Of a DNA stretch of 64,000 nucleotides, positions 25,588 to 50,042 are shown one piece after another. The notes under the pieces are model-generated. The model saw nothing but the letters and a program-made list of their open reading frames with translations. It searched no databases and was not told the DNA's origin. Position 1 is the first letter of the stretch; each line of letters starts with the position of its first letter. The stretch lies in NCBI GenBank assembly GCA_947470185.1, contig CANIRZ010000002.1, forward strand, positions 1 to 64,000, in the 5' to 3' direction. A program made the position numbers and the translations under genes. Origin of the DNA: Sphingomonadales bacterium (GTDB lineage Bacteria > Pseudomonadota > Alphaproteobacteria > Sphingomonadales > Sphingomonadaceae).

Positions 25588-26544
25588 TCAAGTTCCTGGA
25601 ACACCTAGTATTTGAGCTTCCTTCAGCAGTTTGCTTTGCGCTTCCGGATTTGCCGCGACTGACTTTGTTAGTGCCGCCTTTGCTTTTGCCGTTTCACCCA
25701 ATGTCATGCGGCTACGCATCAGCATGATCCAACCGTCTACGTTTTTAGGATTGTTCGCGAGCTTGGTTTCCAGTCCTTCTACCATTGAAGTAACCATTTG
25801 CTGTTGTTGGCCCGGTGGAAGCTTGGCCGCTTGCGCCATATCCGCTTTACTAGGTCCAGGTATTGGAGCTGCCGCAATGCTTTTCAGGATCCCCGATAAG
25901 TCGCCTGTCCGTTTCTTTTGTGTACTTGCCAAGCTTTCTGTAACATCGACTTTGTGAATTTTTCCAACTTGCTCGATGGTTCTGATAAGATCGCTTTCCC
26001 AAGGCGCATCCTTCGGAGTGTCTTTCAATAACGCCAGCCAATCATTGATCGCACCTTTGTGATCGCCATCTAAATCTTTACTGACGGCAAGAAAATAGCG
26101 GGATCGCGGATCTTTTGGGTCAAGTATTATCGCTTTATCGAAAGCCGCTTTGGCTGCTTTTGGCATCGGATTGCGTTCGTCGGCCATGACCAAAGACTCT
26201 CCAAGTGATGACCAATATACTGCGCGGTCCGGTTCAAGTTTTGTTGCCTTGCCGTAGGCATTGGCCGAATCCAGATACCTGCCATTTTCGAAGTAAGACC
26301 AGCCGAGTAACTGCCATGCTTCCACATCCGTTGGATCTTTTTGCGTTCGTTCCTCCAGCGATGCGATTACGGCGTCAGGTCCGGCTGTATTAACGTCAAT
26401 GCCATTGCGGCCAGTTGGGGCGGTTGGTTCGCTTGCACTGCCAAAATTGCGTGATGCGCCAATGGCAATGGCTATAATGAAAATCACGAGAGCGCCAAAG
26501 AGAAGGACCCTTGAAATTTTAGATGTTTCAACTGTTTCAGTCAT
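25588..26544 (-). CDS. Membrane-anchored TPR protein, CcmI/CycH-like
   Basis: The 318-residue protein has one N-terminal membrane helix (about 14-30) and then TPR repeats of the CcmH/CcmI C-terminal type ('DPTDVEAWQLLGWSYFENGRYLDSANAYGKATKLEPDRAVYWSSLGE', then 'NPKNVDGWIMLMRSRMTLGETAKAKAAL'). CcmI-type proteins hold apocytochrome c for haem ligation. No other ccm genes are near, so this may be a dedicated chaperone for the multihaem cytochromes encoded next door rather than the housekeeping CcmI. It is divergent from the oxidoreductase gene; a triple GTAAA-type repeat lies between them. Confidence 0.8.
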   Translation of the reverse strand: MTETVETSKISRVLLFGALVIFIIAIAIGASRNFGSASEPTAPTGRNGIDVNTAGPDAVIASLEERTQKDPTDVEAWQLLGWSYFENGRYLDSANAYGKATKLEPDRAVYWSSLGESLVMADERNPMPKAAKAAFDKAIILDPKDPRSRYFLAVSKDLDGDHKGAINDWLALLKDTPKDAPWESDLIRTIEQVGKIHKVDVTESLASTQKKRTGDLSGILKSIAAAPIPGPSKADMAQAAKLPPGQQQQMVTSMVEGLETKLANNPKNVDGWIMLMRSRMTLGETAKAKAALTKSVAANPEAQSKLLKEAQILGVPGT

Positions 26545-26585
26545 GATCGTCTCAATTTAATTAGAATTAAGGTATAGCACTATCT

Positions 26586-26610
26586 GTAAGAGTTGGTAAA
26601 GTATCGTAAA
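26586..26610. promoter_or_regulatory. Three phased GTAA[A/G] repeats in divergent promoter
   Basis: Pentamers GTAAG (26586), GTAAA (26596) and GTAAA (26606) are spaced exactly ten bases apart, start to start. The array lies 42-66 bp upstream of the CcmI-like gene and about 90-113 bp upstream of the divergent oxidoreductase gene, so one bound regulator could serve both. The spacing and sequence match the element upstream of the CHAT operon. Confidence 0.55.
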
Positions 26611-26698
26611 ATTGGCAGTTTGAATTTCAGGTGGGTAAGTCTCGCTGCCTTGTCCTCGGATAATTTTGTCGGTTTGGTCATGATGGGGGAATAATGGC

Positions 26699-29149
26699 GT
26701 GACAACAAAATATCGCGTTGCAATCATTGGGTCCGGCCCCGCCGGACTGAGTGCTGCCTCGCGCGCCGCTGTCTTAGGTCTGACGCATGTGTTGCTTGAA
26801 AAGACCGATCACCTTTCCGACACGATATATAAGTATCAAAAGGGCAAGCATGTCATGGCGACGCCCAGCCAACTGGTCCTGCGGTCCGATGTCGACTTTG
26901 GTGCAGGGAAGCGTGAAGTCATACTTGATACATGGGACAGTCAAACCGGCGACCACAAGGTGAACGTCCGCTACCATTCAGAGGTTAAAGCGATTGAAGG
27001 AGAGCAGGGAAGCTTCCGTTTGCAGCTGACCGATGGTGCTGTCATTGAAGCGGAAACTGTCATCCTTGCCATCGGGACGCAGGGGAACCCCAATTTGATG
27101 CGTTGTGATGGCGGCGGGTTGTCCCATATCCAATATACACTTGATGACCCCGGCGCCTATATCGACGAACATATCGCCGTGATCGGCGCAGGCGATGCCG
27201 GTATAGAGAACGCGCTCGGTCTCGCGGCGGATCCTGAGCAGCGCAACACGGTTACAATTGTCAACCGGAACGCAGAATTTACCACCGCCAAAGATGCCAA
27301 TATCAAAGCCTTAATTGCTGCGCGCGATATCGGTCGGGTGATTGTGCGGACGGGCACAACGCCCACGCTGGTTGAACCTGGTTTCATCACCTATGATACC
27401 CCAGACGGCGAAGCGAAGGTCAAATGCGATCGGATTATCGCGCGTATGGGGTCGGCGCCGCCGCGTAAATTTATCGAGAGTTGCGGCGTAGAGTTTACCA
27501 GCGAAGACCGCGTTGCATTTCCAAAATTGTCGCCTTCCTTTGAATCAACAAAACAGGGCATCTATGTCATCGGCGCGTTGGCAGGTTATCCGCTGATTAA
27601 GCATTGCATGAACCAAGGCTATGATGTTGTTGAATTCATCAATGGCAACAATGCATTGAAGCCAGCAGATGAACCAATCCTTGAGGCCAAGTTCAAAGAA
27701 TTGCCGGGTCGCAAAAGTGTCGAGGAATGGCTGGAATTTCTGCGGTCCAATATAACGATATTGAACGGCCTTACACCGCTGCAAATGCGCGAGTTTATGC
27801 TCGATTCCGACGCGCGGTTTTACCGGAGCGGAGAAACGATTTTTGAACGTAATGATCCCGGGGCATCATTGTTTTCGATCGCTAGCGGTTCGGTCGAGGT
27901 ATTGATTGACGCACATGACCCGACCAAAATTGTTCCTATCAACACGGGTTCAATCTTTGGCGAAGTTGGATTGATTTCGGGTCGGCGGCGCGGGGCCACG
28001 ATCCGCGCTGGCGAGGATTCTATCTGCGTCGAAATCTCGCGCACTGCCGCGCTGAAGCTGCAGAGCTCGGTGCCTGCCGCAAAGCGTGCAATTGAACGCA
28101 TCTCAACCGAACGCCAATTGCTCCAGCTTTTCGGGTCTGGACTTGTTTCGTCAGATTTGACCGAAGTCCTGGACAATAGCGAAATCCAAACCGTGAGCGC
28201 GGGTAAGCCGGTAATTACCGAAGGTGATGAGGGCGATGACATTTTCATCATCCGCCAAGGTTCTATGGTCGTTGAAAAGAAGGTCGCTGGAAAACAGGTT
28301 TTTCTGTCCTATCTTCCCGCGGGTTCCTATGTCGGCGAAATGGCGCTGATCGGGAATACCCGCCGAACGGCCACTGTTAAAGCAGCGGTCAAATCCGAAG
28401 TGATCAAACTCGACGGCGCTACGTTCAAAGCACTGCTAGAGATGAAACCGGAACTGCTGGCGCGGATCAAATCCGACATGGCATCGCGCCAAGACCTCAA
28501 CGCATTTATGGAAGCCAAGAAGGACAGTTTTTCCAGCGTCGTTGATTACTATTCCAACGTCGCCAATTTCCTCGTTGAGAACGGAATGGGTGAGGCGACC
28601 GACGTGCTGTTGATAGACGAAAGTCTATGTGTTGGTTGCGATAACTGTGAAAAAGCCTGCGCCGACAGTCATGAGGGTTTGTCACGCTTAGACCGCGAGG
28701 CGGGGCGGACTTACGCGCATCTTCATGTGCCTACGTCATGTCGTCACTGCGAACACCCGCATTGTATGGCAGATTGCCCTCCCAATGCCATCCACCGCGG
28801 TCCTGATGGTGAGGTATTCATTGACGACACCTGCATCGGGTGTGGCAATTGCCAGCGCAACTGCCCTTACGGCGTTATCCGCATGGAAGCCGAACCACCG
28901 AAAAAGCCTGGATTACTGAGTTGGATGATGTTGGGCATGGGGCCAGGGCCAGGCGAGCCGAGTAAGAAATGGTCGTATAAAAATGTTGACCCCAATGTAG
29001 AGAAGCCCAAAAAAGCAATTAAGTGCGATATGTGTTCTGGCATTGATGGTGGTCCTGCTTGTGTAAGGGCCTGCCCCACTGGCGCGGCGATACGTGTATC
29101 CCCCGAGAAGTTCTTGACTGTCGCCAGACTTGAAGGCGATGGCGGCTGA
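26699..29149 (+). CDS. FAD-dependent oxidoreductase with two cyclic-nucleotide-binding domains and a four-cluster ferredoxin domain
   Basis: The 816-residue protein joins four modules. Residues 1-315 form a thioredoxin-reductase-like FAD/NAD(P) unit ('IIGSGPAGLSAAS' at 9-21, second Rossmann motif 'VIGAGDAGIENAL' at 161-173). Residues 370-470 and 490-600 are cNMP-binding domains, each with a phosphate cassette ('FGEVGLISGRRRGAT' and 'VGEMALIGNTRRTAT'). Residues 644-800 hold four cysteine quartets, probably [4Fe-4S], like the DmsB/HycB electron-transfer subunits. I see no redox-active CXXC of thioredoxin reductase. It likely moves electrons from NAD(P)H to the membrane partner under cyclic-nucleotide control. 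The GTG start follows a GGGGGA site; its stop overlaps the next start (TGATG). Confidence 0.9.
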   Translation: MTTKYRVAIIGSGPAGLSAASRAAVLGLTHVLLEKTDHLSDTIYKYQKGKHVMATPSQLVLRSDVDFGAGKREVILDTWDSQTGDHKVNVRYHSEVKAIEGEQGSFRLQLTDGAVIEAETVILAIGTQGNPNLMRCDGGGLSHIQYTLDDPGAYIDEHIAVIGAGDAGIENALGLAADPEQRNTVTIVNRNAEFTTAKDANIKALIAARDIGRVIVRTGTTPTLVEPGFITYDTPDGEAKVKCDRIIARMGSAPPRKFIESCGVEFTSEDRVAFPKLSPSFESTKQGIYVIGALAGYPLIKHCMNQGYDVVEFINGNNALKPADEPILEAKFKELPGRKSVEEWLEFLRSNITILNGLTPLQMREFMLDSDARFYRSGETIFERNDPGASLFSIASGSVEVLIDAHDPTKIVPINTGSIFGEVGLISGRRRGATIRAGEDSICVEISRTAALKLQSSVPAAKRAIERISTERQLLQLFGSGLVSSDLTEVLDNSEIQTVSAGKPVITEGDEGDDIFIIRQGSMVVEKKVAGKQVFLSYLPAGSYVGEMALIGNTRRTATVKAAVKSEVIKLDGATFKALLEMKPELLARIKSDMASRQDLNAFMEAKKDSFSSVVDYYSNVANFLVENGMGEATDVLLIDESLCVGCDNCEKACADSHEGLSRLDREAGRTYAHLHVPTSCRHCEHPHCMADCPPNAIHRGPDGEVFIDDTCIGCGNCQRNCPYGVIRMEAEPPKKPGLLSWMMLGMGPGPGEPSKKWSYKNVDPNVEKPKKAIKCDMCSGIDGGPACVRACPTGAAIRVSPEKFLTVARLEGDGG

Positions 29150-30024
29150 TGGCGGGGCGCGCAGCACAGTCCGGACGAGTGCGGAGCGATGGGACGCATG
29201 AGGGATTTTTGCGCCATGAGAATTTTCGCTGGCTAAAAATCGCAACGATGATGTCGCTTTTGGCTCTAGTCAGTTATCTTTTGATTGATGTCCAGCCGCG
29301 CCACAATGGCGGCAGTTGGTTCGGCTACACGTTGGGTACTATTGGCGTCCTGATAATCTTGTGGCTCAGTCTAATAGGTATTCGCAAACGCAAGATGTCG
29401 CGCGGCCATTGGTCCTTAAAGGCATGGACTTCGGCGCATGTCTATCTTGGTCTTAGCCTGATTGTGATCGCAACGCTGCATACCGGGTTCCAACTTGGAT
29501 GGAACGTCCACACGCTCGCTTACGTATTGATGATGATTGTCATCCTGTCGGGTGTCTGGGGTATTTCCGTGTACGCAACCTTACCAAAGGTTATGAGCGC
29601 CAATCGCGACCAGACGACCGAGGCACAAATGCTTGCTTCTTTGCGCTCGATTGACCGACAGCTGCATGACGCGGCGCAACCGCTTGATCAAAACCATGCC
29701 GAACTTGTGCGAAGTTCGCTGGATCAAGATCCGTTTGGTGGCGGTATAATCCGCAGGATGGCCAATCGCTACGCGACCTGCAAGACGCGTCAAGCGCATG
29801 ACGAAATTCTGGTTATTATGGGAAGTCAGCCGGGGGGCAAGGATGATCCGTTGGAGAAAGTGGGCTCGCTTTTGGGGCGAAAAAGGGCGATCCTAGCGCG
29901 GACACGGAAGCATTTGCAGTTAAAGGCCATGCTTGAAATATGGCTCTATTTGCACGTGCCGCTGACATTCGCGCTCATTGCTGCGCTTGTTGCTCATATC
30001 GTCAGCGTATTTTTCTACTGGTGA
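29149..30024 (+). CDS. Integral membrane protein, probable cytochrome b-type quinone/electron carrier
   Basis: The 291-residue protein has five membrane helices (about residues 26-45, 57-78, 96-116, 121-140 and 265-290). Paired histidines lie one helix apart: 'AHVYLGLSLIVIATLHTG' in helix 3 and 'YLHVPLTFALIAALVAH' in the last helix. This pattern is typical of bis-histidine haem b in the cytochrome b561/DUF4405 type. The region between helices 4 and 5 is a soluble cytoplasmic or periplasmic segment. It is translationally coupled to the oxidoreductase and is followed by the FHA-decahaem gene seven bases later, so it probably passes electrons between them. Family assignment is tentative. Confidence 0.75.
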   Translation: MAGRAAQSGRVRSDGTHEGFLRHENFRWLKIATMMSLLALVSYLLIDVQPRHNGGSWFGYTLGTIGVLIILWLSLIGIRKRKMSRGHWSLKAWTSAHVYLGLSLIVIATLHTGFQLGWNVHTLAYVLMMIVILSGVWGISVYATLPKVMSANRDQTTEAQMLASLRSIDRQLHDAAQPLDQNHAELVRSSLDQDPFGGGIIRRMANRYATCKTRQAHDEILVIMGSQPGGKDDPLEKVGSLLGRKRAILARTRKHLQLKAMLEIWLYLHVPLTFALIAALVAHIVSVFFYW

Positions 30025-30031
30025 CTGCAGC

Positions 30032-31822
30032 ATGAGCTTTCTTATCCGCCAAATATCGCGCACCTCCGATGGCCGGGAAATTATCCGTGCTTATCCCCAT
30101 GATGTGCGCGAGATTATAATTGGCCGTGAAGCGTCGTGCGAAATCCACCTCGCCGATTTGGCCGTTGAACTGCGCCATGCCCGTCTGACGTTGCAGGCAA
30201 ATGGCAAACTTGACGTTGTGGCGCTCGCCGGGAACGGTTTTGAGGTAGATGGTAGCAAAACGTCACAAGCTGTTATCGACCCGGCGGGTGGTTCTGAACT
30301 GCGTTTTGGCAGTCATTTGTTGGTCATTTCTGTCGACGATGGCGTAGTCGTTATCACGGCAGAGCGCATCGAAGTGCTGTCGGACTCGACCCAGGAAAAA
30401 GACGAAATTGGCCTGTTCACGTTACGGTCTATAATGCCCAGCAGGAGGCTAATGGCCTGGGCATTGTCTATCATTATTCTGCTGGCTCTGCTGGTTTGGC
30501 CCATCCACACATTCTATAATTATCAAAATGCCGAAAAGCGACCTGCGGCTTTTCACGCCGACAGTCTTTGGAGCAGCGGGTCGCTATCATCGCCGCATGC
30601 TGGATTGGGAATGGATTGCCAGTCTTGCCATACTGAAGCATTTGTTGCGGTGTCCGATAGTTCGTGTGTCTCTTGCCACGAAGATGTCCATGACCATGCC
30701 GATCCCAAAAGGCTGAAACTTGCCAAAGCTCCGCTGAATTGGGATGGAAAAATATCGCGTAAAATTGCCGAGACCTTTAGCCGGCCCGAGGGGCGCTGCG
30801 TTGAATGCCATACCGAGCACGAAGGCGCCGGACCGATGGAAGATACCAAGCAGCAATTTTGCAGCAGCTGCCATACCGATATGAACAAGCGGCTGACCGA
30901 CACTAAGATTGCCAATGCGGGTGATTTCGGCACAGCGCATCCCCAATTCAAGCCAGAGGTCATAACGGCGAACGGTTCTCCACCGAAACGGGAGCGGATA
31001 TCGCTCGATCAAAAGCCTTTGGAAGATAGCGGATTAAAGTTCCCGCACGATGTGCATCTGTCGCGGACGAACGGTGTCGCGCGTATGGGCCAGCAATTTG
31101 GTTTTGGTCAAGCGCTTGATTGCAAGGATTGCCATATAAAGACCCCCGACGGCGTTCAGTTCCAGGCCATCGATATGGAGCAGAGTTGCGCCATGTGTCA
31201 CAGTCTGGGTATTGAAAAGATCGGTGACACGGTCCGAACACTGCGTCACGGCGACCCTAAGATGGTCGTTGCCGATCTGCGTGCCTTTTATCGCGCAGGT
31301 GGCCCTTACCGTGTGCGCACGCGGCAAGTCATGGAAGGACGGAAACGTCCCGGCAGCTATGCCCGTAGCCAACCCTATTATGCCTATTTCGGCAGCGTGA
31401 ATTACAGCCGTGCTGACAGCGCCATCCGCTCTGTCTTCTCAAAGGGTGGAGCATGCTATGACTGCCATACCGTTATCACGCCACCTGCCGGTTCAGACAA
31501 TTGGCAGGTGCAAAAGGTCCATCAAACATCGCGCTTTATGATGAAGGGCTGGTTCGACCATGCGGCGCATGACACAGAGACATGCTCATCCTGTCACGCG
31601 GCGAAAAAGTCAGGCAATGCCAGTGAGTTGTTGCTACCCGGCATCAAGACATGCCGAACTTGCCACGGCGGTGAGGCGTCTAACGCAGATGTCCCATCAA
31701 GTTGCGCAATGTGCCATAGTTTCCATGCAGATGATGGCGCGCCATGGGTGCCGAAGTTTGATATGACGCGTAAACGGGATCTTAGCAAAGCCCGCGTAGA
31801 GAATATCAAGGTACGCACATAG
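30032..31822 (+). CDS. FHA-domain / transmembrane / decahaem c-type cytochrome fusion
   Basis: I start the protein at the ATG at 30032; the frame is open 18 codons further upstream inside the previous gene. The 596-residue product has an N-terminal cytoplasmic FHA-like domain (about 1-115), one membrane helix (about 139-158) and a periplasmic part with ten CXXCH haem sites between residue 196 and the C-terminus. The FHA core 'IIGREASCEIHL' is clear, but the following conserved Ser-Arg pair is replaced ('VELRHA' instead of VSRxHA), so phosphothreonine binding may be lost. A cytoplasmic FHA joined across the membrane to a decahaem is unusual. The protein could dock the oxidoreductase on the inside and hand electrons to the periplasm. 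Confidence 0.9.
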   Translation: MSFLIRQISRTSDGREIIRAYPHDVREIIIGREASCEIHLADLAVELRHARLTLQANGKLDVVALAGNGFEVDGSKTSQAVIDPAGGSELRFGSHLLVISVDDGVVVITAERIEVLSDSTQEKDEIGLFTLRSIMPSRRLMAWALSIIILLALLVWPIHTFYNYQNAEKRPAAFHADSLWSSGSLSSPHAGLGMDCQSCHTEAFVAVSDSSCVSCHEDVHDHADPKRLKLAKAPLNWDGKISRKIAETFSRPEGRCVECHTEHEGAGPMEDTKQQFCSSCHTDMNKRLTDTKIANAGDFGTAHPQFKPEVITANGSPPKRERISLDQKPLEDSGLKFPHDVHLSRTNGVARMGQQFGFGQALDCKDCHIKTPDGVQFQAIDMEQSCAMCHSLGIEKIGDTVRTLRHGDPKMVVADLRAFYRAGGPYRVRTRQVMEGRKRPGSYARSQPYYAYFGSVNYSRADSAIRSVFSKGGACYDCHTVITPPAGSDNWQVQKVHQTSRFMMKGWFDHAAHDTETCSSCHAAKKSGNASELLLPGIKTCRTCHGGEASNADVPSSCAMCHSFHADDGAPWVPKFDMTRKRDLSKARVENIKVRT

Positions 31823-31837
31823 GCAGAGGGATTTGCT

Positions 31838-32686
31838 TTGTTAATTGCTCAGGTTACCGACATTCATTTAGGATTTGATCGGGATAATCCGGTCGAGTTT
31901 AATCGCAAGCGCCTTGATAAGGTGTTGCGGCATTTGAACAATGGCCCCAACCGACCCGACTTACTCATTGCCACAGGTGATTTGACTGAACATGGGGCAT
32001 CTGCGAGCTACAGGCAACTCGCAGATGCGTTTAGTGTATGTAGTTTCCCCGTTCATATGTGTCTTGGCAATCATGATATCCGAAGCAATTTTACCGCGCA
32101 ATTCCCTGAAATTCCTGTCGTAGATGGTTTCGTTCAATATGCGTTGGAAGCTGGCGGTGTTCGCATACTAATGCTCGACACTCTGGAAGAGGGACGTCAT
32201 GGCGGTGCTTTTTGTGACACGCGCGCCAAATGGCTTCGGTCAACACTTGCACAAGACCGTGACACTCCGACCATTATTGGCATGCATCATCCACCTGTCG
32301 AAATCGGCATCGCGTGGATGAATACCCATCCCGAAGAACAATGGGTCAGCAACTTCACGCAAGCCATTCAGGATGCTCCCAATATAAAGGGAATAATGTG
32401 CGGCCATGTCCACAGATCCATTGCTGTGCCGTGGAACGGAACAGCAGTTACGATCTGCTCCTCAACCGCGGCGCAAGTAGCGTTGGACCTGAACCCGATT
32501 GATCCCGAAAAGCCGGATAACAGGGCCATGATCATCGCCGATCATCCTGCTTATGCACTACACTTCTGGAACGGGCGGGAACTTGTGTCACATTTCGACA
32601 GTGCAGGCGACCAAGCCATTCTGGCTAAATATGACAGCCATTTGCAGCCTTTCATCAAAAAGCTGATTGGCGAGCGCCCTAGCTAG
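31838..32686 (+). CDS. Metallophosphoesterase, 3',5'-cyclic-nucleotide phosphodiesterase (CpdA)-like
   Basis: The 282-residue protein has the full calcineurin-like metallophosphoesterase motif set: 'TDIHLG', 'ATGDLTEHG', 'GNHD', 'GMHHPP' and 'GHVHR'. The order, length and HHPP/GHVHR form fit class III cAMP phosphodiesterases such as CpdA; other phosphodiester substrates remain possible. It starts with TTG after an AGAGGG site, 15 bases behind the FHA-decahaem gene, and is the last plus-strand gene of this operon, overlapping the convergent decahaem gene by eight bases. Its place beside two cNMP-binding domains suggests it resets that signal. Confidence 0.85.
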   Translation: MLIAQVTDIHLGFDRDNPVEFNRKRLDKVLRHLNNGPNRPDLLIATGDLTEHGASASYRQLADAFSVCSFPVHMCLGNHDIRSNFTAQFPEIPVVDGFVQYALEAGGVRILMLDTLEEGRHGGAFCDTRAKWLRSTLAQDRDTPTIIGMHHPPVEIGIAWMNTHPEEQWVSNFTQAIQDAPNIKGIMCGHVHRSIAVPWNGTAVTICSSTAAQVALDLNPIDPEKPDNRAMIIADHPAYALHFWNGRELVSHFDSAGDQAILAKYDSHLQPFIKKLIGERPS

Positions 32687-35600
32687 GTGATTTCAAGGGG
32701 GGGCGCCAACTGGTTACTTCCGCCTCATCAGTTACCATATAGGGCTTGCCTAGGCTGTTAAGGAAAAGCTTCTCCATCTCCGCCCGCGTGAATGGCCGAG
32801 AACCCAGTCGGCCAAATACCGCTATTTGTTTTCCGCTTTCATCTACCGCACGGTCACGGTCGATACCTTTGGAAATAGCATAAGCAGGCCAAGGCGTTTT
32901 TGCCCAAGCAATCAACTCCGGTTTTGGTGCAGGCGAGAAGCCATAAAAATTCGGCTGAGACGAAGGCGACGTGAGTTGGATAACCTTCATTCCGTTTTTG
33001 CCGTCGGCGACATATGCGAAAGCCGAGGCATTGGTAGAGCCCACGACAACATCTTCGGCGTCCGACAATTGCCCGCCAAATGTTTCTTTGAGATAGATAG
33101 ATGGCGCAGCGGGTTTTGTGACATTGACGATGACCAAGCCATCCTGCTTGGCGGCAACATATAGATATGTACGCGCGACATAGAGTTTGCGGGCATTGGC
33201 CAGCGCGATATTGCCTTGCGGCACCGCTACTGGTTTAGCCAATTTTGTCACATCAAATAACTTCACACCCTCTGCATCGCTGACCCAAAGATAGCGGAAT
33301 TGGATCGCTGATGCGCGCGCATCGTTAAGTTTAATTACGGCAGTTGTTTTTGGCCGCATGGGGTTGTCGAGATCGACGACGACCAGCCCGACATCGGCGG
33401 TCACATAAGCATAATGTCCGGCAAGTGTAACATGACGCGCACCTTTCAACACGCCTTGATCGTTCCAAGTCACCGCACGTTTCAGGAAATTATTGCGGAA
33501 CTCTCCATCAGCCATGGTGTTGATATCAACAAGGATAAGTCCTTCGAAGCTATCGGTAATAACCGCGTAATTATAGATCGGGTGGAATGCCTGCTCCTGA
33601 TTGGCCTCACGCATTTCGGGCGTGTTGCGCAATGGACTGATCGGCTGGTTGGTTGCCAGCGCCATGCACGTCGCGTTCCTCGATTTGACCTTGGTATTGT
33701 GGCCAAGTTTGGAAAATGGTCCTGACACGATTCGCTCGGAAAAGCCCTTATTGGCAATCGAGGCAACGTCATAGACCTGAAAGCCGCGATTACCTTGCGC
33801 GACGTACATATACTCGCCCCGCAATTGCAGGCAGCCAACCTTGTCGCCGGTGCCTTGAACAATGTTGACGAATTCTTCCGTTGCGTCGGTTTCGCCCGAA
33901 AGGTTTTTGTCGAGTGTCTTACCGCGCACCCAATTTTTAAGCTCGCGCCCATTTTGGTCCACGTGTAGCTTGTAATAATCCGGATAAGCATAGCGCTGGA
34001 GATACGAGCCTATCACTGCCTGCGGCTCGTCCCACTCGGTAACACGCACGGCTTCAAACCCGCCTTCTAGGCCGACCCATGCGTTCAAGCCCACGAAATT
34101 CACGTAATTTGTGCCAAGCAGCATTAACTGCGCCATGATCGCGTTATTGTCTCCCGTTGCCGACAAATGGCAATCGGTGCATTGCTTCGTTTCAGTTTTT
34201 CTGACCGTGTGTGGGAAATGCGGAGCAAAGGCCTGGCTGGAAAATCCGATCGAGCTGATAGGTGGCTGTTGGATATAGATGCGCTCGCGGTTGACGTTTG
34301 TTGACGACAGGACCAGCGCAGAAGTAGAGCGAACGGGTGCGATGATATTGCCCTTGGTCGTTTGATGCCGACCAAGCTGGAACATATCCTCTCGCGCAAC
34401 CTGCGGATTGTAGGTCGCAAAATTACGCGTCTCTTCTTCCTCATATTTGTGCGTTTTGGTTTTCCAATTGGCTTCAATCGGCAAATGGCATCCGCCGCAA
34501 CTCGTGGTCCAGGACAGATGGCAGGTGAAGCAGGTCATTTTGTCGTCACCGTGGGCACGCTCGCCTATGGGGACATCAAGTCCATATTTATAGTCGCCGG
34601 TTTCTTTACCCATGCGTCCCATGAGCTTGGCGCGCGCGGCTTTTGCGTTGAAATGCCCATTGCCGGGGTTCATGCTGTCTTTAACTAGGCTGACTTCCCA
34701 TTCTAGCTTGGGATCAACGATAGACCTCTGCATTAACTTGCGACTGCCATCGGATTCAAACAGCCATTCGAAACGACGCCGACCATCGGCATTGCGAAGC
34801 AACGCCAGATTATTACCCTGCGGGCGCGCAGCCGGACCAGATGTCAGCAGCGTAGGGTAAGCGTCGGCAGTGCCGTGACAATCTTTGCAGCCTATCTCGA
34901 CAGCATTGGCGACCTCGGTATAGATCAGACCATTGCCATGGCTGTCCTGCGCGAAATGACAGTCTGCACATTGCAGCCCTTTTTCGGCATGGATATCCAT
35001 CATATGTACGGTCTTGCCGGGATTTATCCCGGGTTCGACAAATTTGCCCTCACCCTTTTTACGCCATTTCTCAGGATCGTCGGGCGCCACTATCTTGCCA
35101 TCTGCATCAAGCAAATTGCCCTCGCGGTCCCGCTTGAAAATGCCGCGGAAATTCCAACCATGGCCGTGATAGTCGGCGAACTGTGTATCCTTCAGGTTGG
35201 GATTAAGGTCGTACACGTTACGCAAAAAATCGAGATCCGACCATTTGCCCTTGGGTGCTGCAGCCTCAGGATTGCGGTCAAGAACTTTGAATTTTTCCGC
35301 CGCCGTTGGATATTTCTGCTTTTGCGGCCACATCGAGGGCGCATCGGACTCGTAATCCCACATCGTGTAACCGAGATAGCTGTTCAGGAAAATATTCGGC
35401 TGATGCATGTGGCAATTCATGCACTGCGATGTTGGAATTGCGCGCGTGAATATATGACGAAGCGGGTGGCCCTTTTCCTTTACCGGTGCGGCGTCATGGC
35501 CAGGCTCTTTCACAGCGCCATGGCCTTTGTCATCATGATCATCCGGCTCCATCTTATTGGCAATGGTCGGGTCAATCGTCTGCGTCTGTCCGTCGCGGCC

Positions 35601-36686
35601 ATATTGGGAATAGCCAAGACTGTGCCGTGGCTCGCGGTCATTCGCATATACAACATGGCATGCAGCACAGCCCGAATGGCGATAATCACCCGGCTGATCA
35701 TTTGTTCCCATGAACCACATGAATGGGTCGTTTAGGCGTGTTTTGTGAATATTGAGAATGGGTATGGCAACACGCAATCCGGTAGCTGGACCGCGATTGG
35801 ACTGCTTGAGATCGGGACGCCCCGGTTCCTCAAGCCGCTGTATGCTGCCAGTCGGGTTGGGTAGGCCAACTTCGGCAAACTGCGTATTGATGTTGCGTCC
35901 GCCGCGCTCAAAGACGCGGAAAACGTCGCCCGGCGGAACGACTGTCCACATCGGCAGCGGATAAAGCACCGCCAATGCACCGCGTTTTTTCTGTTCATCG
36001 GTAACGGTACCCGGCGGAGTGCCCGGCGACATGATTTTTGCCGGTTCGCCGTGCTTGGTGTAAGCTTCCCCTGTTACATAATTTTTATAGGGCAATATGC
36101 CATTATTATAGGCCGCTCCGCCCCATAGCATCGCGCCAGATGCCATAATCGAACGCTCGCCCGCTTCGATGACTTCCATATGGCACGCGCCGCAGGATTC
36201 ACGGACAACGCGGTAGTCGGTTGGATTATTGAAGCGGATAAATTCGGCGCTTTCCTGGTTCAGCAAGGTGTAACTGCGTTTGGGATTGGCAGACGAAGGA
36301 AAATGCCAGCTTTTTGGGTATTTGGGAAGGACGTGTGCCTTGTCACGCGCTGCGACATAGGCAGGATCATCATGTTTCAGATTGGAATTACCCATGACTT
36401 TCGGATCGCCACCGTGACAATCCACGCAACCCAGTTGGACGGCTGGCGAGCTGTGCATGGTCGGCGCGTCGGTTTGGATGTGACAGGAATAGCAGCCCGA
36501 TGACTTTGCCAGCACATCTGAAACTTCTTGCGTTCGCGGTGCAGGCGGAAAGGTCGGGTAGATGCGCTCTACTGGCTTCTCCTTGTCCGCAGCATAAGCC
36601 AATGACGCCGCAAACACGCAGCATAGCAGCAGCAAAATGACTGTCCAAATCCGGTTGCGGTTCAAGGCAAAATCGGCGCGCATCAA
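32679..36686 (-). CDS. Decahaem c-type cytochrome with C-terminal LVIVD-type beta-propeller
   Basis: The 1335-residue exported protein has a signal peptide (ending near 'LAYA') and ten CXXCH haem sites between residue 65 and about 840. From about residue 950 it has repeated 'GEYMYVAQGNRGFQVYDV', 'HYAYVTADVGLVVVDLDNP' and 'TYLYVAAKQDGLVIVNV' units, the LVIVD/beta-propeller repeats of extracellular binding domains. The combination of a decahaem module with a propeller suggests a periplasmic or surface electron-transfer protein with its own docking domain. It ends a minus-strand operon; its start overlaps the barrel gene (ATGA). I cannot name the substrate or acceptor. Confidence 0.9.
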   Translation of the reverse strand: MMRADFALNRNRIWTVILLLLCCVFAASLAYAADKEKPVERIYPTFPPAPRTQEVSDVLAKSSGCYSCHIQTDAPTMHSSPAVQLGCVDCHGGDPKVMGNSNLKHDDPAYVAARDKAHVLPKYPKSWHFPSSANPKRSYTLLNQESAEFIRFNNPTDYRVVRESCGACHMEVIEAGERSIMASGAMLWGGAAYNNGILPYKNYVTGEAYTKHGEPAKIMSPGTPPGTVTDEQKKRGALAVLYPLPMWTVVPPGDVFRVFERGGRNINTQFAEVGLPNPTGSIQRLEEPGRPDLKQSNRGPATGLRVAIPILNIHKTRLNDPFMWFMGTNDQPGDYRHSGCAACHVVYANDREPRHSLGYSQYGRDGQTQTIDPTIANKMEPDDHDDKGHGAVKEPGHDAAPVKEKGHPLRHIFTRAIPTSQCMNCHMHQPNIFLNSYLGYTMWDYESDAPSMWPQKQKYPTAAEKFKVLDRNPEAAAPKGKWSDLDFLRNVYDLNPNLKDTQFADYHGHGWNFRGIFKRDREGNLLDADGKIVAPDDPEKWRKKGEGKFVEPGINPGKTVHMMDIHAEKGLQCADCHFAQDSHGNGLIYTEVANAVEIGCKDCHGTADAYPTLLTSGPAARPQGNNLALLRNADGRRRFEWLFESDGSRKLMQRSIVDPKLEWEVSLVKDSMNPGNGHFNAKAARAKLMGRMGKETGDYKYGLDVPIGERAHGDDKMTCFTCHLSWTTSCGGCHLPIEANWKTKTHKYEEEETRNFATYNPQVAREDMFQLGRHQTTKGNIIAPVRSTSALVLSSTNVNRERIYIQQPPISSIGFSSQAFAPHFPHTVRKTETKQCTDCHLSATGDNNAIMAQLMLLGTNYVNFVGLNAWVGLEGGFEAVRVTEWDEPQAVIGSYLQRYAYPDYYKLHVDQNGRELKNWVRGKTLDKNLSGETDATEEFVNIVQGTGDKVGCLQLRGEYMYVAQGNRGFQVYDVASIANKGFSERIVSGPFSKLGHNTKVKSRNATCMALATNQPISPLRNTPEMREANQEQAFHPIYNYAVITDSFEGLILVDINTMADGEFRNNFLKRAVTWNDQGVLKGARHVTLAGHYAYVTADVGLVVVDLDNPMRPKTTAVIKLNDARASAIQFRYLWVSDAEGVKLFDVTKLAKPVAVPQGNIALANARKLYVARTYLYVAAKQDGLVIVNVTKPAAPSIYLKETFGGQLSDAEDVVVGSTNASAFAYVADGKNGMKVIQLTSPSSQPNFYGFSPAPKPELIAWAKTPWPAYAISKGIDRDRAVDESGKQIAVFGRLGSRPFTRAEMEKLFLNSLGKPYMVTDEAEVTSWRPPLKSPS

Positions 36687-38554
36687 TAGGTCAATATCAC
36701 GTTGGCGAGCAGGGAGTAATATTGTTTGTTGCGCGGTCGGTTGGTAAACAAATCTTTGAATCCTTTACCGGGTAACAACGTCGCAGCCGACAACCGGGCA
36801 ACGATATTTTGCGTAGCTTTGGGACGCCATATCGCTGCTGCTGACAGGTCACAACCGATCTCTCTTGGAATACTACCCTCCGCACGGAGCACTTTCAGAT
36901 TGGATGTATTTTCGAACCACAGATAGTTGGCGTTTGTTGACAAACGCATCGTTGGGGTCAGATCAAAATCAGCCCCAGCGCCAAGCAATATCGTTCCAGG
37001 ATTGTTGAAATTCGACTGGCCTTGTTCTTTAGAAGAGCGCAGCGAATTTAACATGCCGTTGCGGCCATTGATACTGATCGCACGGCCGCCGCCGGCGAAG
37101 GGAATAGTCTGGCGTATCCAGTAACTGGTGTCAGCCCCTGCAAAAATGGGATTTTCAAAAATCGCATCAAAGCCTGTTTCTTTGTTATCAAATGGGTCGC
37201 GGTCACCTGTTGCATAAAGGCCAGATAGACGGAAGCGTGTCCAGTCAAGATCATAGCTCGCTTCAGCGGCAGCAAAGCCAGCGCGGATTTTGGATTTCTG
37301 CCCGGTGAAGAAATTCTGACTATCGGTACCAAACGCGCCGTAGATTGATGCGGTTAGATTGACCCGTCCAATGCGGCCATCGGCATTATAGCCGAGATAG
37401 ACAACGTCGTAATTCCGGCCGCGCAAATTGCCAAGCAACGCAGGCCGAACAGGAAAGCCATTATCGTCAATCTCGACCCGACTTTTCTCACGATTCATAT
37501 TATACACGGCGGTAATTTGGCTGGTCAGGCCAGGAATAGGTAGATCCTGCCGATATAGGTTTCCGATGAAAACCCAGTCATTGCGTGGTCGCTGCACGAC
37601 ACTGTTCAAGCCCGAATTGGTGTCCTTTTCCAGTCGCCAGAACGCACCCAAATTATACTGCCAGCGGTTGTTGTCACGGCTGCCGAAATAGCGGATGCCC
37701 AGTTGCTGGTCGTTGAACAGGAAGCCTCTAAAATCGCTTTGAAACGGCTGTATGCCGACCCGGATTGATTCAAAGTCATAACGATCCGATGTATTGCGAA
37801 CGTGATAGTCAACGAACAATTCCTGCAAACCCAGAAAATGGTCAAGCCGGTGCGAAGGCTTTGAGGGTTGAACAAACAGCACGCGTTTTTCCGGCACGTT
37901 CACATAATTGACGTTGAGCGCAAGCGCGACGCGATATTCTATGTCAGGCGGTTTAAACGCAGTCAGGCCCTTAATAAGAGCAGCCCCAAGGATAAACGTC
38001 TGCGAGTATACCTCACTGCCGTCTTTGCCAAAAATATCCAAATCGCCGGGACGCTCTGTGGTCTGGACGCCGACCGGAATCGGAAAAGTGCGTGCCTCGA
38101 CAACGGTGTCGCTAACTGCGCTCGCAACGAAAAACCAGTCATCGCCTTTGATAGGCAACCATGGAACTTTCGCACGATTGATGGGACGGTCGCCTTTATA
38201 CGTGTTTTGATTATAGGGGTCGAACCAACGTTCCTTCACAAGCCCCAAAGACTGGATCAGTCGCCATCTGTCGGGGATTGGAAACTCATCGGTTGGAAAT
38301 GCCTCAGGCGGCGGCGGACGCACTGCGCCAATGTTATCTTGCGTGACTTTTTCAGGCAGACGCGTTTGATATCCGGGGCGCTTACGGCCTTCGATAATGC
38401 CGTTATCGGGATCCGCAAGCGGATCAACTTCGGGTTCCGTTGGCAAAGCAGTCCCAGATACTGGCGGCTTTGCATCGATGGAGGCCAACGGATTATAGGC
38501 ACTGACCGCTGCGGTTATCGGTATTGGTATTGGTGGCAGATCGGCAAACATCAT
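36683..38554 (-). CDS. Large probable outer-membrane beta-barrel of the multihaem locus
   Basis: The protein has a proline-rich N-terminal region and, from about residue 170 on, many alternating aromatic/polar strands with 'DRYDFESIRVGIQPFQSDFRGFLF', 'WRLEKDTNSG' and a final 'YYSLLANVILTY' strand, typical of a large outer-membrane barrel. I start it at the ATG at 38554, which overlaps the upstream stop (ATGA) after a GGGG site and gives 623 residues; the frame is open 18 codons further. Neither start gives an ordinary signal peptide, which is odd for an outer-membrane protein. By place, between a lipoprotein gene and a decahaem gene, it resembles the barrel of a porin-cytochrome conduit (MtrB-like in role, not visibly in sequence). 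Confidence 0.7.
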   Translation of the reverse strand: MMFADLPPIPIPITAAVSAYNPLASIDAKPPVSGTALPTEPEVDPLADPDNGIIEGRKRPGYQTRLPEKVTQDNIGAVRPPPPEAFPTDEFPIPDRWRLIQSLGLVKERWFDPYNQNTYKGDRPINRAKVPWLPIKGDDWFFVASAVSDTVVEARTFPIPVGVQTTERPGDLDIFGKDGSEVYSQTFILGAALIKGLTAFKPPDIEYRVALALNVNYVNVPEKRVLFVQPSKPSHRLDHFLGLQELFVDYHVRNTSDRYDFESIRVGIQPFQSDFRGFLFNDQQLGIRYFGSRDNNRWQYNLGAFWRLEKDTNSGLNSVVQRPRNDWVFIGNLYRQDLPIPGLTSQITAVYNMNREKSRVEIDDNGFPVRPALLGNLRGRNYDVVYLGYNADGRIGRVNLTASIYGAFGTDSQNFFTGQKSKIRAGFAAAEASYDLDWTRFRLSGLYATGDRDPFDNKETGFDAIFENPIFAGADTSYWIRQTIPFAGGGRAISINGRNGMLNSLRSSKEQGQSNFNNPGTILLGAGADFDLTPTMRLSTNANYLWFENTSNLKVLRAEGSIPREIGCDLSAAAIWRPKATQNIVARLSAATLLPGKGFKDLFTNRPRNKQYYSLLANVILTY

Positions 38555-40536
38555 AGCCCCTGGCACACATTCTGCTGGCTGGTATCGAGGAACGATGCGA
38601 ACGGGCACCCGATATAACGCAGCCTTATTTTGGCCCCGCCGACGGTGACTTCGATCTGATCAGTGCGTATCGCAGGGGCCGCATTCCCAATGCTGCCAAC
38701 GCGCAGACCTGCGTTATTGGCGCCTAAGAAACCGGCCATATCGTCCTGATCAATACCGTCACCAGAAACGCCAATTGCACCAACCAATGTCGATCCGCGG
38801 TACACTGGAACGGACCCCGGGAATATCTGGATGCCGTTTTGCAGTCGGTTTTGTCCGGTCGCAACATCTGGTGTTGTGGTGCAGCGTGCTGGCGTGTCTG
38901 GATTGCTGCCAAACAAAAAGCCAAGATGGGTCGTAATGTTGCCAACAATCAAGGCCGACTGAAGTCCGGTAGAAAAAGGATTAAAGCCGTTAATATCGCG
39001 CGAAAATGGTCCCGGTGGGCGCCCAATTTCGCCGTCAGGAAAATAGGGACGTGAAATATTGCTGATCGCGCGGGTAGTCCAAGCGTGCTGGCCAGTAAAA
39101 ATATTGCTGTTGCCGAAAAATGTCCGTGCGTTGCCAAGAAATATCCCGATGTTCGGACTGCTATTTGCTGCCAAATCAGATGCTGCGCGCGGGTTGGAAA
39201 AAAATGCGGCAGTTCTCGCTTTTTGCAATGAAACATCCGTACCAAAGACGGGCGCATCAGGGCCACGCACAATGCCCAGTATCGCACCGTGCGTGTCGAC
39301 CAGACTGATCGTCATTTGTGCGCGGCTATCGTTAGGGCGGCGTATTTGCGCGCGAGAACGGCTCATTGTTGTGAAGGATTCTTCCAACAACGCCCGTGCC
39401 TCTGCACTGCTGAGTGGCGTTGCAACCGACGCGGAGTCGGTTCCGGCGCGTATCGGGAAGCGATTGGTTCCCGATCCATCCGATAATATATACGCGTCGC
39501 GGTTGGCAAATTCCGCCGCAGTGGCTGCACGTACACCTGACGCTTCGCTGCCAAAAACCGATCCGGCGACTATGCTGCCGCTTGAATAACCGGGGACCCG
39601 TGCCAAATTGCCGACGCTACCGTTCAATGCCGCAAAGCTTTGCGCGGTGCCGCCACGCAGTCCGGCCAGCGTCGCGTCAGAATAGCGCAATAGTGTTCCG
39701 TCGACGCTAATCCGCTCTGCCTTAATGTCTTCGCTTGGCGCGAACCCTTGCGTGGCTGCTAGCGCAATAAATTCTTCATTGTCATTGTCGACATCCAATA
39801 TGTTCGGGTCAAAACCATAAATGCCGTCACCCATCACGCCGATGCCGCCAACAACTACTCCGTTTTTGTAAAGCGGAAATCCGCCCGAGTCTGCGGATAG
39901 CCCCAATGGCGAACGCTTGGGGCCAATAAGCGCTGCTGCACCAAAACTGCCAAAGCGTTGCATCATGTCCGAACATGGGAGTTGGCTGAATTGCACGCCG
40001 TATAATGGGCCGCTTTCAAGGCCAAGGGTCGTGGGTGCGGGCGGAAAATGCTGCTGGATAATTTGGCTTGCTGTGCGGGTGGAAAAGGCGTTGCCGCTAC
40101 TAGACAGATAGGCGCCGGTAATGGCCTTTGCGATTGCCCCGGCAACCGCCGCTGGAGCGGGCAGATTGACGCCTTGCAGATCGGTGTTGGACGAAGGGCC
40201 GCCCGGCGCATCAGGAATTCTCAGGCTCAAATTCGCACCGTTCATAACGAACACGCCGAGTACATTGCCAACGCGATCCACCACCGCGATTGTGGAAGGC
40301 AAGTTACGCGCCTGCGCCTCCGCCACCGCCAGCGATATAGCCCGCTCGACATCTGTGACCGTAAGCGATTCCGCCGCGGGGTCGGTATACAGTCTTGCCG
40401 AACTGGATGGTGGCGGCGGCGAAGGTGTTGCCGCGCTGTTGCCGCTGCCGCTTGCACCACTGCTGCTTCCGCCGCCGCCACAGGACGACAATATGAGCGA
40501 AGAGCTCGTAATGATCGCGGTCAGTTGTTTACGCAT
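38551..40536 (-). CDS. Lipoprotein with two HbpS/GlcG haem-binding-like domains
   Basis: The 661-residue protein begins with a lipoprotein signal ('LILSSC' lipobox) and a Gly/Ser/Pro linker. Two HbpS/GlcG (DUF336) domains follow, about residues 60-330 and 370-655. Each has the domain's ends: 'AISLAVAEAQARNLPSTIAVVDRVGNVLGVF' and 'MTISLVDTHGAILGIVRG' at the start, and 'YKNGVVVGGIGVMGDG' and 'YRGSTLVGAIGVSGDG' at the end. HbpS in Streptomyces binds haem and iron and signals redox stress. A tandem, lipid-anchored version inside a cytochrome cluster suggests haem handling or sensing at the outer membrane. It lies between the CX4CH cytochrome (two bases apart) and the barrel (overlap). Confidence 0.85.
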   Translation of the reverse strand: MRKQLTAIITSSSLILSSCGGGGSSSGASGSGNSAATPSPPPPSSSARLYTDPAAESLTVTDVERAISLAVAEAQARNLPSTIAVVDRVGNVLGVFVMNGANLSLRIPDAPGGPSSNTDLQGVNLPAPAAVAGAIAKAITGAYLSSSGNAFSTRTASQIIQQHFPPAPTTLGLESGPLYGVQFSQLPCSDMMQRFGSFGAAALIGPKRSPLGLSADSGGFPLYKNGVVVGGIGVMGDGIYGFDPNILDVDNDNEEFIALAATQGFAPSEDIKAERISVDGTLLRYSDATLAGLRGGTAQSFAALNGSVGNLARVPGYSSGSIVAGSVFGSEASGVRAATAAEFANRDAYILSDGSGTNRFPIRAGTDSASVATPLSSAEARALLEESFTTMSRSRAQIRRPNDSRAQMTISLVDTHGAILGIVRGPDAPVFGTDVSLQKARTAAFFSNPRAASDLAANSSPNIGIFLGNARTFFGNSNIFTGQHAWTTRAISNISRPYFPDGEIGRPPGPFSRDINGFNPFSTGLQSALIVGNITTHLGFLFGSNPDTPARCTTTPDVATGQNRLQNGIQIFPGSVPVYRGSTLVGAIGVSGDGIDQDDMAGFLGANNAGLRVGSIGNAAPAIRTDQIEVTVGGAKIRLRYIGCPFASFLDTSQQNVCQGL

Positions 40537-40538
40537 GT

Positions 40539-41933
40539 CTATCGCAACGCCCGGACTGCACTGGCAGCAGCACCAATCGCACTGCGAAAATCCGATGGGC
40601 GATAGGCGTTTGGATCACGCACCGCTTCATAAGCGCGGTTTACATTGGCACGGATGCCAGCTGCCGCACCTTGCGTGATGTTGCCCGAACGCACCAGTGC
40701 ACTCAGTAACGTATCAACCGCCATAACGGCTTGCACCGACCCCTCATAATCTGTGAGGCGAGCGGCAATGGCATCGGTTGCGATGATGTCAATTATTGCA
40801 AAGGCTTGGCCGCTACCAAAGCTGCCAGATGCAAAATTATTCGCCAAATCATCTGCTGCGATGGATAAGCGCCGCGCCGCGGCGATTGCACTGCTTCGGT
40901 CGAGCGCCAAAGCTGCATGGAAATCCTTGCTTGCCTTATCAAACTGCCCTGCCGACGCTGGTGCCGTTATCCGCGCAGCCGCCGACAGCATGATCATGTT
41001 TTCATCATTATATGGCGGCATGCCTTCCGGAATTGGCCGTCCGGGGTTGCGCACGCCAGTCTTAACTGCGTCAGCTTGATCATAAATCCGACGGTGGCAG
41101 CTATGGCAATCAAAGAAATAGAATTCGGGAAACGCACCCTCTGTGCCACGACTGGCGCTTGCATAAAGATCCAGAGAGCGTTTGAGCGCAAGCGCTTGCC
41201 CGACGGCCCATAGCTGCACATTATCAGTGCGCCGTTTGCGCGCCACATAATCGGCATCCTCATCATGATGTTGTTGCAGAGATGAAAATAGGTCGAGTTC
41301 GAACGAAATACGTGGGTGCCCTGCCGCCATGATCCGGTGGTTTACAAACTGCCCTTGGGCGGCGCTTCCAAAATGGCAGTCGAGGCATACGCCTGCGCGC
41401 ACCTTTGGATTTTCAAGCGGCGTCAGGCCGCGCGCAACATTATTGGCATGACTTGCACCAACAGCGTAATGGCTGGCAATCCAATTTGAAGCACCACCAT
41501 GGCATGACTCACATCCCACGCCGTCGGCCAGTTGAAAGCTGTTGCCTCGCGATGCGGCCGGGTCGGCGTGACAACCTAGGCACATTGGCGCCGAAGATGC
41601 TTTGCCGATACCCAAATTGCGGGCGATTTGTCCACTGCGTTTGCCCAATAAGACAGAATAGGCTTGGCTATGTTTTCCGGCGGGCGATGAGGGTTCCTGC
41701 CAACGCAAAACCTCATCCTGCCGCACCACTGCGCCATCGGCTTCCAACCTGCCGTGGCAGGTTGAGCCAGCGCATGAGGCAACGCCCAAATGTGTATAGT
41801 CCGAAACCCCTGTTGCCCGCACAGGGGACAAAATTGGAAATACAACTGCCATAAGCAAAAGAAGGACGCACAACGTAAGAAGCACACCCGGCATAGCCTT
41901 CAAGAAAGCATGGCTTTTCCCAAACTCGGCCAT
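40539..41933 (-). CDS. Membrane-anchored multihaem cytochrome c (cytochrome c554-like), one CX4CH site
   Basis: The 464-residue protein has one N-terminal membrane helix (about 15-36) and a haem-rich region up to about residue 265. It contains four CXXCH sites (CLGCH, CESCH, CLDCH, CHSCH) and, first, an unusual CX4CH ('CAGSTCH', residues 54-60) in a 'HLGVASCAGSTCHG' context known from cytochrome c554-type proteins. The C-terminal 180 residues are helical and haem-free. It is the first gene of the minus-strand block of lipoprotein, barrel and decahaem, and could be the entry point taking electrons from the inner-membrane partners. A TTTGATCAAA palindrome lies 68 bp upstream. Confidence 0.85.
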   Translation of the reverse strand: MAEFGKSHAFLKAMPGVLLTLCVLLLLMAVVFPILSPVRATGVSDYTHLGVASCAGSTCHGRLEADGAVVRQDEVLRWQEPSSPAGKHSQAYSVLLGKRSGQIARNLGIGKASSAPMCLGCHADPAASRGNSFQLADGVGCESCHGGASNWIASHYAVGASHANNVARGLTPLENPKVRAGVCLDCHFGSAAQGQFVNHRIMAAGHPRISFELDLFSSLQQHHDEDADYVARKRRTDNVQLWAVGQALALKRSLDLYASASRGTEGAFPEFYFFDCHSCHRRIYDQADAVKTGVRNPGRPIPEGMPPYNDENMIMLSAAARITAPASAGQFDKASKDFHAALALDRSSAIAAARRLSIAADDLANNFASGSFGSGQAFAIIDIIATDAIAARLTDYEGSVQAVMAVDTLLSALVRSGNITQGAAAGIRANVNRAYEAVRDPNAYRPSDFRSAIGAAASAVRALR

Positions 41934-43415: not shown

Positions 43416-43498
43416 AATATTCGTCCTCTTCCGTAAGAATTTAAGCGGTAAATTTCTATCAAGTACCAAGCAGACAGATTAACTGTAATGTAATTTCC

Positions 43499-48469: not shown

Positions 48470-48568
48470 ATGACCGATAACGACCAAAATAAGCCCACCC
48501 TTGCAAATGCGCTTGTTGCGCTGCTGGAGGCGCCGATGACCGCCACCCAGTGTTCAGGCGCATGCTAG
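48470..48568 (+). CDS. Short ORF at recombinase deletion junction, 32 aa
   Basis: An ATG after a good GAGG site begins a 32-codon frame ('MTDNDQNKPTLANALVALLE'). About 20 codons in, the sequence switches, in another frame, to the body of the serine recombinase. It looks like the remaining 5' end of a separate small element gene that was joined to the recombinase by a deletion. Whether it is translated is unknown. Confidence 0.4.
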   Translation: MTDNDQNKPTLANALVALLEAPMTATQCSGAC

Positions 48569-50007: not shown

Positions 50008-50042
50008 GAATCTGATGCTCTATCCTGCTGAGCTATGGGTGC
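49966..50042 (-). tRNA. tRNA-Arg (anticodon CCT)
   Basis: The minus strand folds into a full cloverleaf: acceptor GCACCCA pairs with TGGGTGC, D stem GCTC/GAGC, anticodon stem TCAGA/TCTGG with loop TTCCTAA (anticodon CCT, reading AGG), a five-base variable loop, and T stem ACTGG/CCAGT with TTCGAAT. The CCA end is encoded (49966-49968). Its 3' end abuts the broken serine recombinase, the usual arrangement when an element integrates at a tRNA gene. Confidence 0.97.

Follow-up and report, generated by a model that had tools for sequence, protein, structure and literature searches.

The window analysed here is the whole stretch of 64,000 nucleotides from a Sphingomonadales bacterium, and it carries a cluster of genes for multihaem cytochromes and envelope proteins in two halves that are separated by a phosphoesterase gene (Table 1). 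A sequence-only reading had listed a flavo/Fe-S enzyme, a bis-His membrane protein, three multihaem cytochromes, a barrel-type protein and an HbpS lipoprotein, and all of these genes are present at the positions it gave. The phosphoesterase gene was absent from that list, and the range covered opens with a CcmI/CycH-like gene whose product is a probable cytochrome c maturation factor. The Pfam domains found are FAD/NAD, two cNMP, 4Fe-4S, cytochrome b561-like, FHA, c3/c7, LVIVD, C554 and HbpS. Because of gene overlaps and comparison with relatives, 38554 (barrel), 36683 (decahaem-propeller) and 30032 (FHA protein) are taken as the likely starts in place of those of the ORF finder; the FHA start is the ATG after the cytochrome b stop, and the barrel start overlaps the HbpS stop (ATGA).

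Table 1. Features of the window in order of position, with the evidence for each assignment.
Feature	Position	Strand	Evidence
Two-partner secretion pair: exoprotein with MBG/YDG repeats and ShlB/FhaC transporter	12921-19669	-	
CHASE2-class III nucleotide cyclase (associated, not core)	19659-21623	-	CHASE2 1.7e-33, Guanylate_cyc 5.5e-20
TPR-CHAT protein	22378-25386	-	
CcmI/CycH-like TPR protein (associated, not core)	25588-26544	-	TPR_CcmH_CycH 5.2e-24
NAD(P)H/FAD oxidoreductase, cytoplasmic, with two cyclic-nucleotide-binding domains and C-terminal 4Fe-4S	26699-29149	+	Pfam Pyr_redox_3 3.7e-26, cNMP_binding 7.1e-34 (2 stretches), Fer4_7 2.2e-13
Membrane cytochrome b561-like protein	29149-30024	+	Ni_hydr_CYTB 6.8e-7, 29.7 bits, just under the cut-off of 30.1
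FHA domain, one membrane helix (by eye) and ten-CXXCH part placed in the periplasm	30032-31822	+	Pfam, translation
Calcineurin-type phosphoesterase, cyclic-nucleotide phosphodiesterase-like	31838-32686	+	Metallophos 1.1e-18; SpdA 2.4e-41 and CpdA-type 5.5e-27, both below cut-off
Decahaem cytochrome with C-terminal LVIVD propeller, ExtM-related	32679-36683	-	LVIVD 1.7e-16; ExtM 1.7e-19
Outer-membrane barrel, 18-strand AlgE-like (predicted)	36683-38554	-	Model and fold search
Lipoprotein with two HbpS-like regions	38551-40536	-	HbpS-like 8.1e-22, 4 stretches; lipobox pattern in 65/72 sequences
c554-like cytochrome, four CXXCH and one CX4CH	40539-41933	-	Closest solved structure cytochrome c554 1bvb, E 0.0011
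Glutamate dehydrogenase	42060-43469	-	
Aldehyde dehydrogenase and thiamine-diphosphate enzyme pair	43499-46581	-	
Resolvase/recombinase	48550-49365	+	
tRNA-Arg	49966-50042	-	

The translated open reading frames bear out an earlier count of 24 CXXCH motifs and one CX4CH motif in three proteins: ten CXXCH in the frame at 29978-31822, ten in that at 32679-36686, and four plus the CX4CH in that at 40539-41933. No CXXCH was found in 12 other translated frames, and up to 25 c haems in total would be encoded by the three cytochromes. These sites are kept in the relatives. Ten CXXCH are present in 68 of 70 readable decahaem-propellers, the window's included (L072 has nine and L020 an assembly gap), and in 28 of 30 readable FHA proteins, again with that of the window; the other two FHA proteins have nine and a CX4CH, and five rows were unreadable. 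The c554-like protein holds four CXXCH and the CX4CH in 57 of 58 sequences, including the window, with CX3CH in the remaining one. Histidines outside the haem motifs that are kept in at least 95% of sequences number 10 in the FHA protein (31 sequences), 6 in the c554-like protein (58) and 16 in the decahaem-propeller (69). Since these near-invariant histidines are sufficient in number, bis-His ligation would be possible at every c haem site, and such ligation throughout is characteristic of electron-transfer proteins and not of catalytic ones. In the cytochrome b-like protein, His 97, 111, 121, 269 and 283 occur in every non-gap row of 36, and the spacing of 97, 111, 269 and 283 fits two stacked b haems, which the protein probably holds.

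A scan of contigs with the barrel as query gave 147 relatives, from which 80 loci were kept. They belong mainly to Alpha- and Gammaproteobacteria, with hosts that are by record title Sphingomonadales, Caulobacterales, Hyphomonas, Parvularculaceae, Geminicoccaceae, Burkholderiales and several Gammaproteobacteria. The HbpS gene lies upstream of the barrel and shares its strand in every one of the 77 loci where 900 bases or more were available on that side; the decahaem-propeller comes directly after the barrel in 74 of the 75 testable loci. A c554-like gene is found anywhere in the locus in 57 of 67 testable cases and is absent from 10. The FHA protein occurs in 37 of the 80 loci. Of these, 35 also have the cytochrome b and 31 the reductase. 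In 14 loci, including those of Dokdonella, Tahibacter and Sulfuriflexus, a single strand carries the reductase, the FHA protein and the barrel. A search of 23 genomes recovered the FHA protein in every one: 22 are genomes whose fetched locus had no FHA protein, and the other is that of L054, a locus that held the FHA protein close to the end of its stretch. In some of the 22 the FHA gene lies just outside the fetched stretch. The Aerophototrophica crusticola barrel (L060, 201-1862) is followed by no decahaem-propeller in the next 10 kb, and upstream of it is the contig end.

The decahaem-propeller has a match in 21 of 240 alphaproteobacterial genomes. Fifteen of the matches are at E < 1e-60 (one a fragment), and six are weak and partial and were not counted; the 15 genomes with a strong match all contain HbpS and the FHA protein as well. 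In the phylum set of 299 genomes there are 13 matches, five strong and eight partial, weak and not counted. One assembly of this set (G439) shows no decahaem-propeller match and has its barrel 333 bases from a contig end, a proximity that makes an assembly gap the likely cause of the absence. The distribution of the barrel is patchy: besides its own genome, 4 of 36 further genomes of the genus have it, and 0 of 24 further ones of the order. Copies covering at least 80% of the query were found on 13 plasmids, 12 from Sphingobium and one from Sphingopyxis. A complete cluster resides on the Sphingobium herbicidovorans plasmid pMSHV, which is typed as conjugative; its genes are annotated there as cytochrome c family protein, heme-binding protein, hypothetical protein (the barrel), multiheme c-type cytochrome, metallophosphoesterase, cytochrome c3 family protein, hypothetical protein and cyclic nucleotide-binding domain-containing protein. 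On these sequence comparisons, the genes form one conserved system. The earlier proposal that they constitute one trans-envelope electron-transfer system gains support from the conserved order, the co-occurrence and the haem conservation.

The surroundings of the cluster are more variable. Genes of the two-partner secretion kind are also present on pMSHV, but of the 48 loci that extend far enough upstream of c554 only 13 have one there, and such a gene was for this reason rejected as a core member. The aldehyde dehydrogenase and thiamine-diphosphate enzyme pair adjoins the cluster in Sphingomonadales and lies on the other side in Caulobacterales loci, and glutamate dehydrogenase adjoins c554 in Sphingorhabdus and Sphingopyxis loci. 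A CcmF-type cytochrome c maturation gene, divergent and upstream of the reductase, was identified in L074, and the same protein cluster is present in L073. The resolvase/recombinase gene of the window is close to the tRNA-Arg gene, and this neighbourhood is possibly an integration site.

As judged by profiles, ExtM of Geobacter is the described protein closest to the outer cytochrome. The ExtM model is matched by all 32 decahaem-propellers scanned (best E 6.7e-23), and the window protein scores 69.6 bits against the ExtM equivalog with its cut-off of 800, so it is related below the equivalog level. No solved structure related to it by sequence was found (best E 0.69), and the predicted fold of its haem part (residues 40-940) is of low confidence (pLDDT 45.6, pTM 0.36). 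Judged by eye, its signal shows no clear lipobox. The Geobacter cluster extHIJKLMNOPQS likewise combines a small porin with several cytochromes. In contrast to it, the scores here are far below the equivalog cut-offs and the propeller, FHA and cNMP parts are extra; profile searches gave no ExtI-type porin or ExtH rhodanese match among nine proteins scanned, with a library that may lack an ExtI model.

The barrel was modelled with AlphaFold2 from 68 sequences. The model has 18 strands, a mean pLDDT of 71 and a pTM of 0.72, with low confidence over most of residues 1-119, in 162-172, in 484-497 and in a few short stretches; the signal peptide is poor by eye. The first 13 Foldseek matches are AlgE (E 4.6e-17, TM 0.68 by target and 0.48 by query), and Occ/OprD-type and other porins follow. 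The barrel thus has the predicted 18-strand fold of the AlgE alginate exporter, at 11-12% identity in the structural matches. No related solved structure was found by sequence (best E 0.2). Pfam alginate export is the sole family matched at E 0.01, by 10 of 68 barrel relatives (best 8.7e-7); the window protein is not among them and scores 12.5 bits against a cut-off of 25.2. What sets the barrel apart from AlgE is its neighbour, a gene for a multihaem cytochrome in 74 of the 75 loci that could be tested.

In this adjacency the cluster resembles MtrCAB and other porin-cytochrome conduits, and a crossing of the outer membrane by electrons is proposed for both. It differs from MtrCAB in the predicted 18-strand AlgE-like barrel and in having an NAD(P)H-type enzyme on its inner side. 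The MtrB barrel has 26 strands; the usual barrel formula gives a backbone radius of about 23.5 angstrom for this number and about 16.5 angstrom for 18. PMC5877670 gives 28 predicted segments in place of 26. A profile search with the window barrel and 68 members returned no MtrB-type family, and with 18 predicted strands, AlgE as the best fold match and alginate export as the sole Pfam family at E 0.01, the protein does not have the features of a large MtrB-type barrel. Because an 18-strand barrel is narrow, a sleeve around a decahaem appears unlikely from the model, and a small haem domain could sit at the barrel mouth. The arrangement suggested before, in which a barrel would enclose the decahaem as in MtrCAB, is thus left unsupported by an AlgE-like model whose further matches are OprD/Occ and other porins. 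A predicted barrel unable to accommodate a decahaem had been named as evidence against such a conduit, and the model points that way, at a mean pLDDT of only 71.

The comparison with MtrCAB extends to the cytochromes. For the MtrA/DmsE-type periplasmic decahaem (TIGR03508, cut-off 192.2), the FHA cytochrome scores 13.8 bits and the c554-like protein 16.3. The FHA cytochrome just passes the cut-off of 30 for the MtrC/MtrF domain II/IV family PF22113 with 31.1 bits, which leans towards an MtrCAB-like reading; the decahaem-propeller (15.2 bits) and the c554-like protein (15.9) do not reach it. The same FHA cytochrome scores higher for the cytochrome c3 (48.4) and c7 (45.7) families, and its haems are preceded by the FHA domain and a helix. 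We read the match as general multihaem likeness and no proof of MtrC. The HbpS lipoprotein has no CXXCH. Altogether, the MtrCAB picture appears weak for this cluster as modelled. Cyc2 is a fused cytochrome-porin, a narrow barrel with a c-type cytochrome, from which the present system differs in having the two as separate proteins, with no CXXCH in the barrel. Among the matches listed in the open full-text literature, a scope that leaves most subscription papers and all preprints outside, no account of the cluster was recognised.

The two halves of the cluster can apparently separate, since some genomes bear the FHA protein and lack the decahaem-propeller. Strong FHA matches (E < 1e-35) occur in 19 of 240 genomes, with two more weak ones; the decahaem-propeller is absent from four of the 19 (G085, G112, G120 and G165) and from both genomes with weak matches. 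In G085 the FHA match is near a contig end and HbpS is present. In G120 and G165 the inner-membrane trio is accompanied by one or two c554-like proteins, a five-CXXCH protein and a CXXCH-free protein of 535-538 aa. That the trio stands beside another cytochrome and another CXXCH-free protein in these two genomes fits a modular electron-delivery unit that may serve different outer modules. The alternative outer module, with its c554-like protein, five-CXXCH cytochrome and CXXCH-free 535-538 aa protein, lies at L107 9419-15522 and L108 2847-7809. Its five-CXXCH cytochrome has weak similarity to ExtKL of the Geobacter ext cluster and to DmsE. The 535-538 aa protein was considered as a barrel relative and rejected, with no detectable relation by hhalign (E 0.24, two-sequence profile).

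The reductase carries a possible link to signalling. Both cNMP pocket motifs are found in 31 of 33 reductases, that of the window included, and the other two match the motif once; we take its Glu and Arg to be the residues of working cyclic-nucleotide pockets. Of the 57 loci that extend far enough past the decahaem-propeller, 33 have the start of a phosphodiesterase-like gene in the next 5 kb, and the gene is missing from the other 24. CHASE2 genes number from 0 to 4 per genome in 41 genomes, and in 17 of the 41 no cyclase was seen near the cluster in our own tally. In 15 of the 20 genomes common to both searches a CHASE2 gene is at most 20 kb from the FHA gene, vs. 0.39 expected, a contrast that overstates the number of independent events, because the limit was chosen after the positions had been seen and the genomes share ancestry, for which no correction was made. 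The two cNMP pockets, together with a phosphodiesterase-like gene and a CHASE2 cyclase that are often nearby, suggest cyclic-nucleotide gating of the reductase, and the CHASE2 cyclase is a possible source of the signal. In the window, the TPR-CHAT gene lies near this cyclase.

In general, these data support well a trans-envelope electron-transfer chain, as far as comparison of sequences can, and a course from NAD(P)H to the outer membrane is likely. The parts of the cluster, their conservation and their linkage are read directly from the genomes; the order of carriers, the direction of flow, the gating, the position of the propeller protein at the outer membrane and the kind of acceptor are what we infer from them. 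Electrons from NAD(P)H in the cytoplasm would enter the FAD/Fe-S enzyme and pass to the two b haems, which would take them across the inner membrane to the FHA protein and its periplasmic decahaem part. From there they would move through the c554-like pentahaem protein to the ExtM-like decahaem-propeller, which may be held at the outer membrane by the narrow AlgE-like barrel and the HbpS lipoprotein. The final acceptor would be an oxidant that is extracellular or is admitted through the outer membrane. The entry enzyme would be gated by a cyclic nucleotide bound to its two cNMP domains, at a level set by the CHASE2 cyclase and the phosphodiesterase encoded nearby. Such a cyclic-nucleotide-gated trans-envelope electron-export chain seems to be the best explanation of the whole, with a probability of roughly 0.55.

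The main rival is a small-solute reductase, in which the cytochromes would stay periplasmic and the narrow barrel, with HbpS as a binder, would admit a small oxidant to be reduced by the decahaem-propeller, with no wiring to the surface. It owes this place to the ExtM likeness, seen in all 32 members scanned, and to the Geobacter phenotype given in PMC5877670, where loss of the ext porin impaired the reduction of selenite and tellurite and not that of Fe(III) citrate. The predicted 18-strand AlgE-like barrel would suit it as well. However, no substrate or catalytic haem site was identified in the proteins, the cluster falls outside the ext family by its ExtM score, and the invariant histidines, enough for every haem, suit electron transfer. 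We consider a purely periplasmic reductase less likely than the export chain.

The same parts could also run in reverse, so that an external donor, for example a reduced metal or metalloid, would supply the electrons for NAD(P)+, and one host is called Croceibacterium selenioxidans (L026), which is a name only. However, electrons from weak donors would not be expected to end at a flavoenzyme of the NAD(P)H-oxidising type with cyclic-nucleotide domains, and most of the hosts are organotrophs; inward flow thus appears improbable. The constant presence of the HbpS-like lipoprotein gene, in 77 of 77 testable loci, might point instead to haem or iron acquisition, with HbpS binding external haem and the cytochromes reducing iron. 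This is the most improbable of the readings: the scanned proteins, a subset of the window genes, include no TonB-dependent receptor or iron-uptake family, and 25 c haems are, in our judgement, a costly route to iron.

Extracellular electron transfer has been studied chiefly in anaerobic metal reducers. The present cluster appears to be a variant of outer-membrane electron transfer, a function that we infer from its sequences, and its novel aspects would be a barrel type of its own and possibly a signal-gated entry enzyme. More tentatively, it may represent an undescribed form of electron export in which cAMP or cGMP, perhaps together with phosphopeptide binding by the FHA domain, switches NAD(P)H electrons to a multihaem module with a narrow AlgE-like barrel. 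Since some hosts can be cultured and pMSHV, which bears one of the copies, is typed as conjugative, the proposal is open to direct testing. If the export reading is true, a conserved chain with as many as 25 c haems in Sphingomonads, Caulobacteraceae and Lysobacterales would widen the range of bacteria in which extracellular electron transfer is sought.
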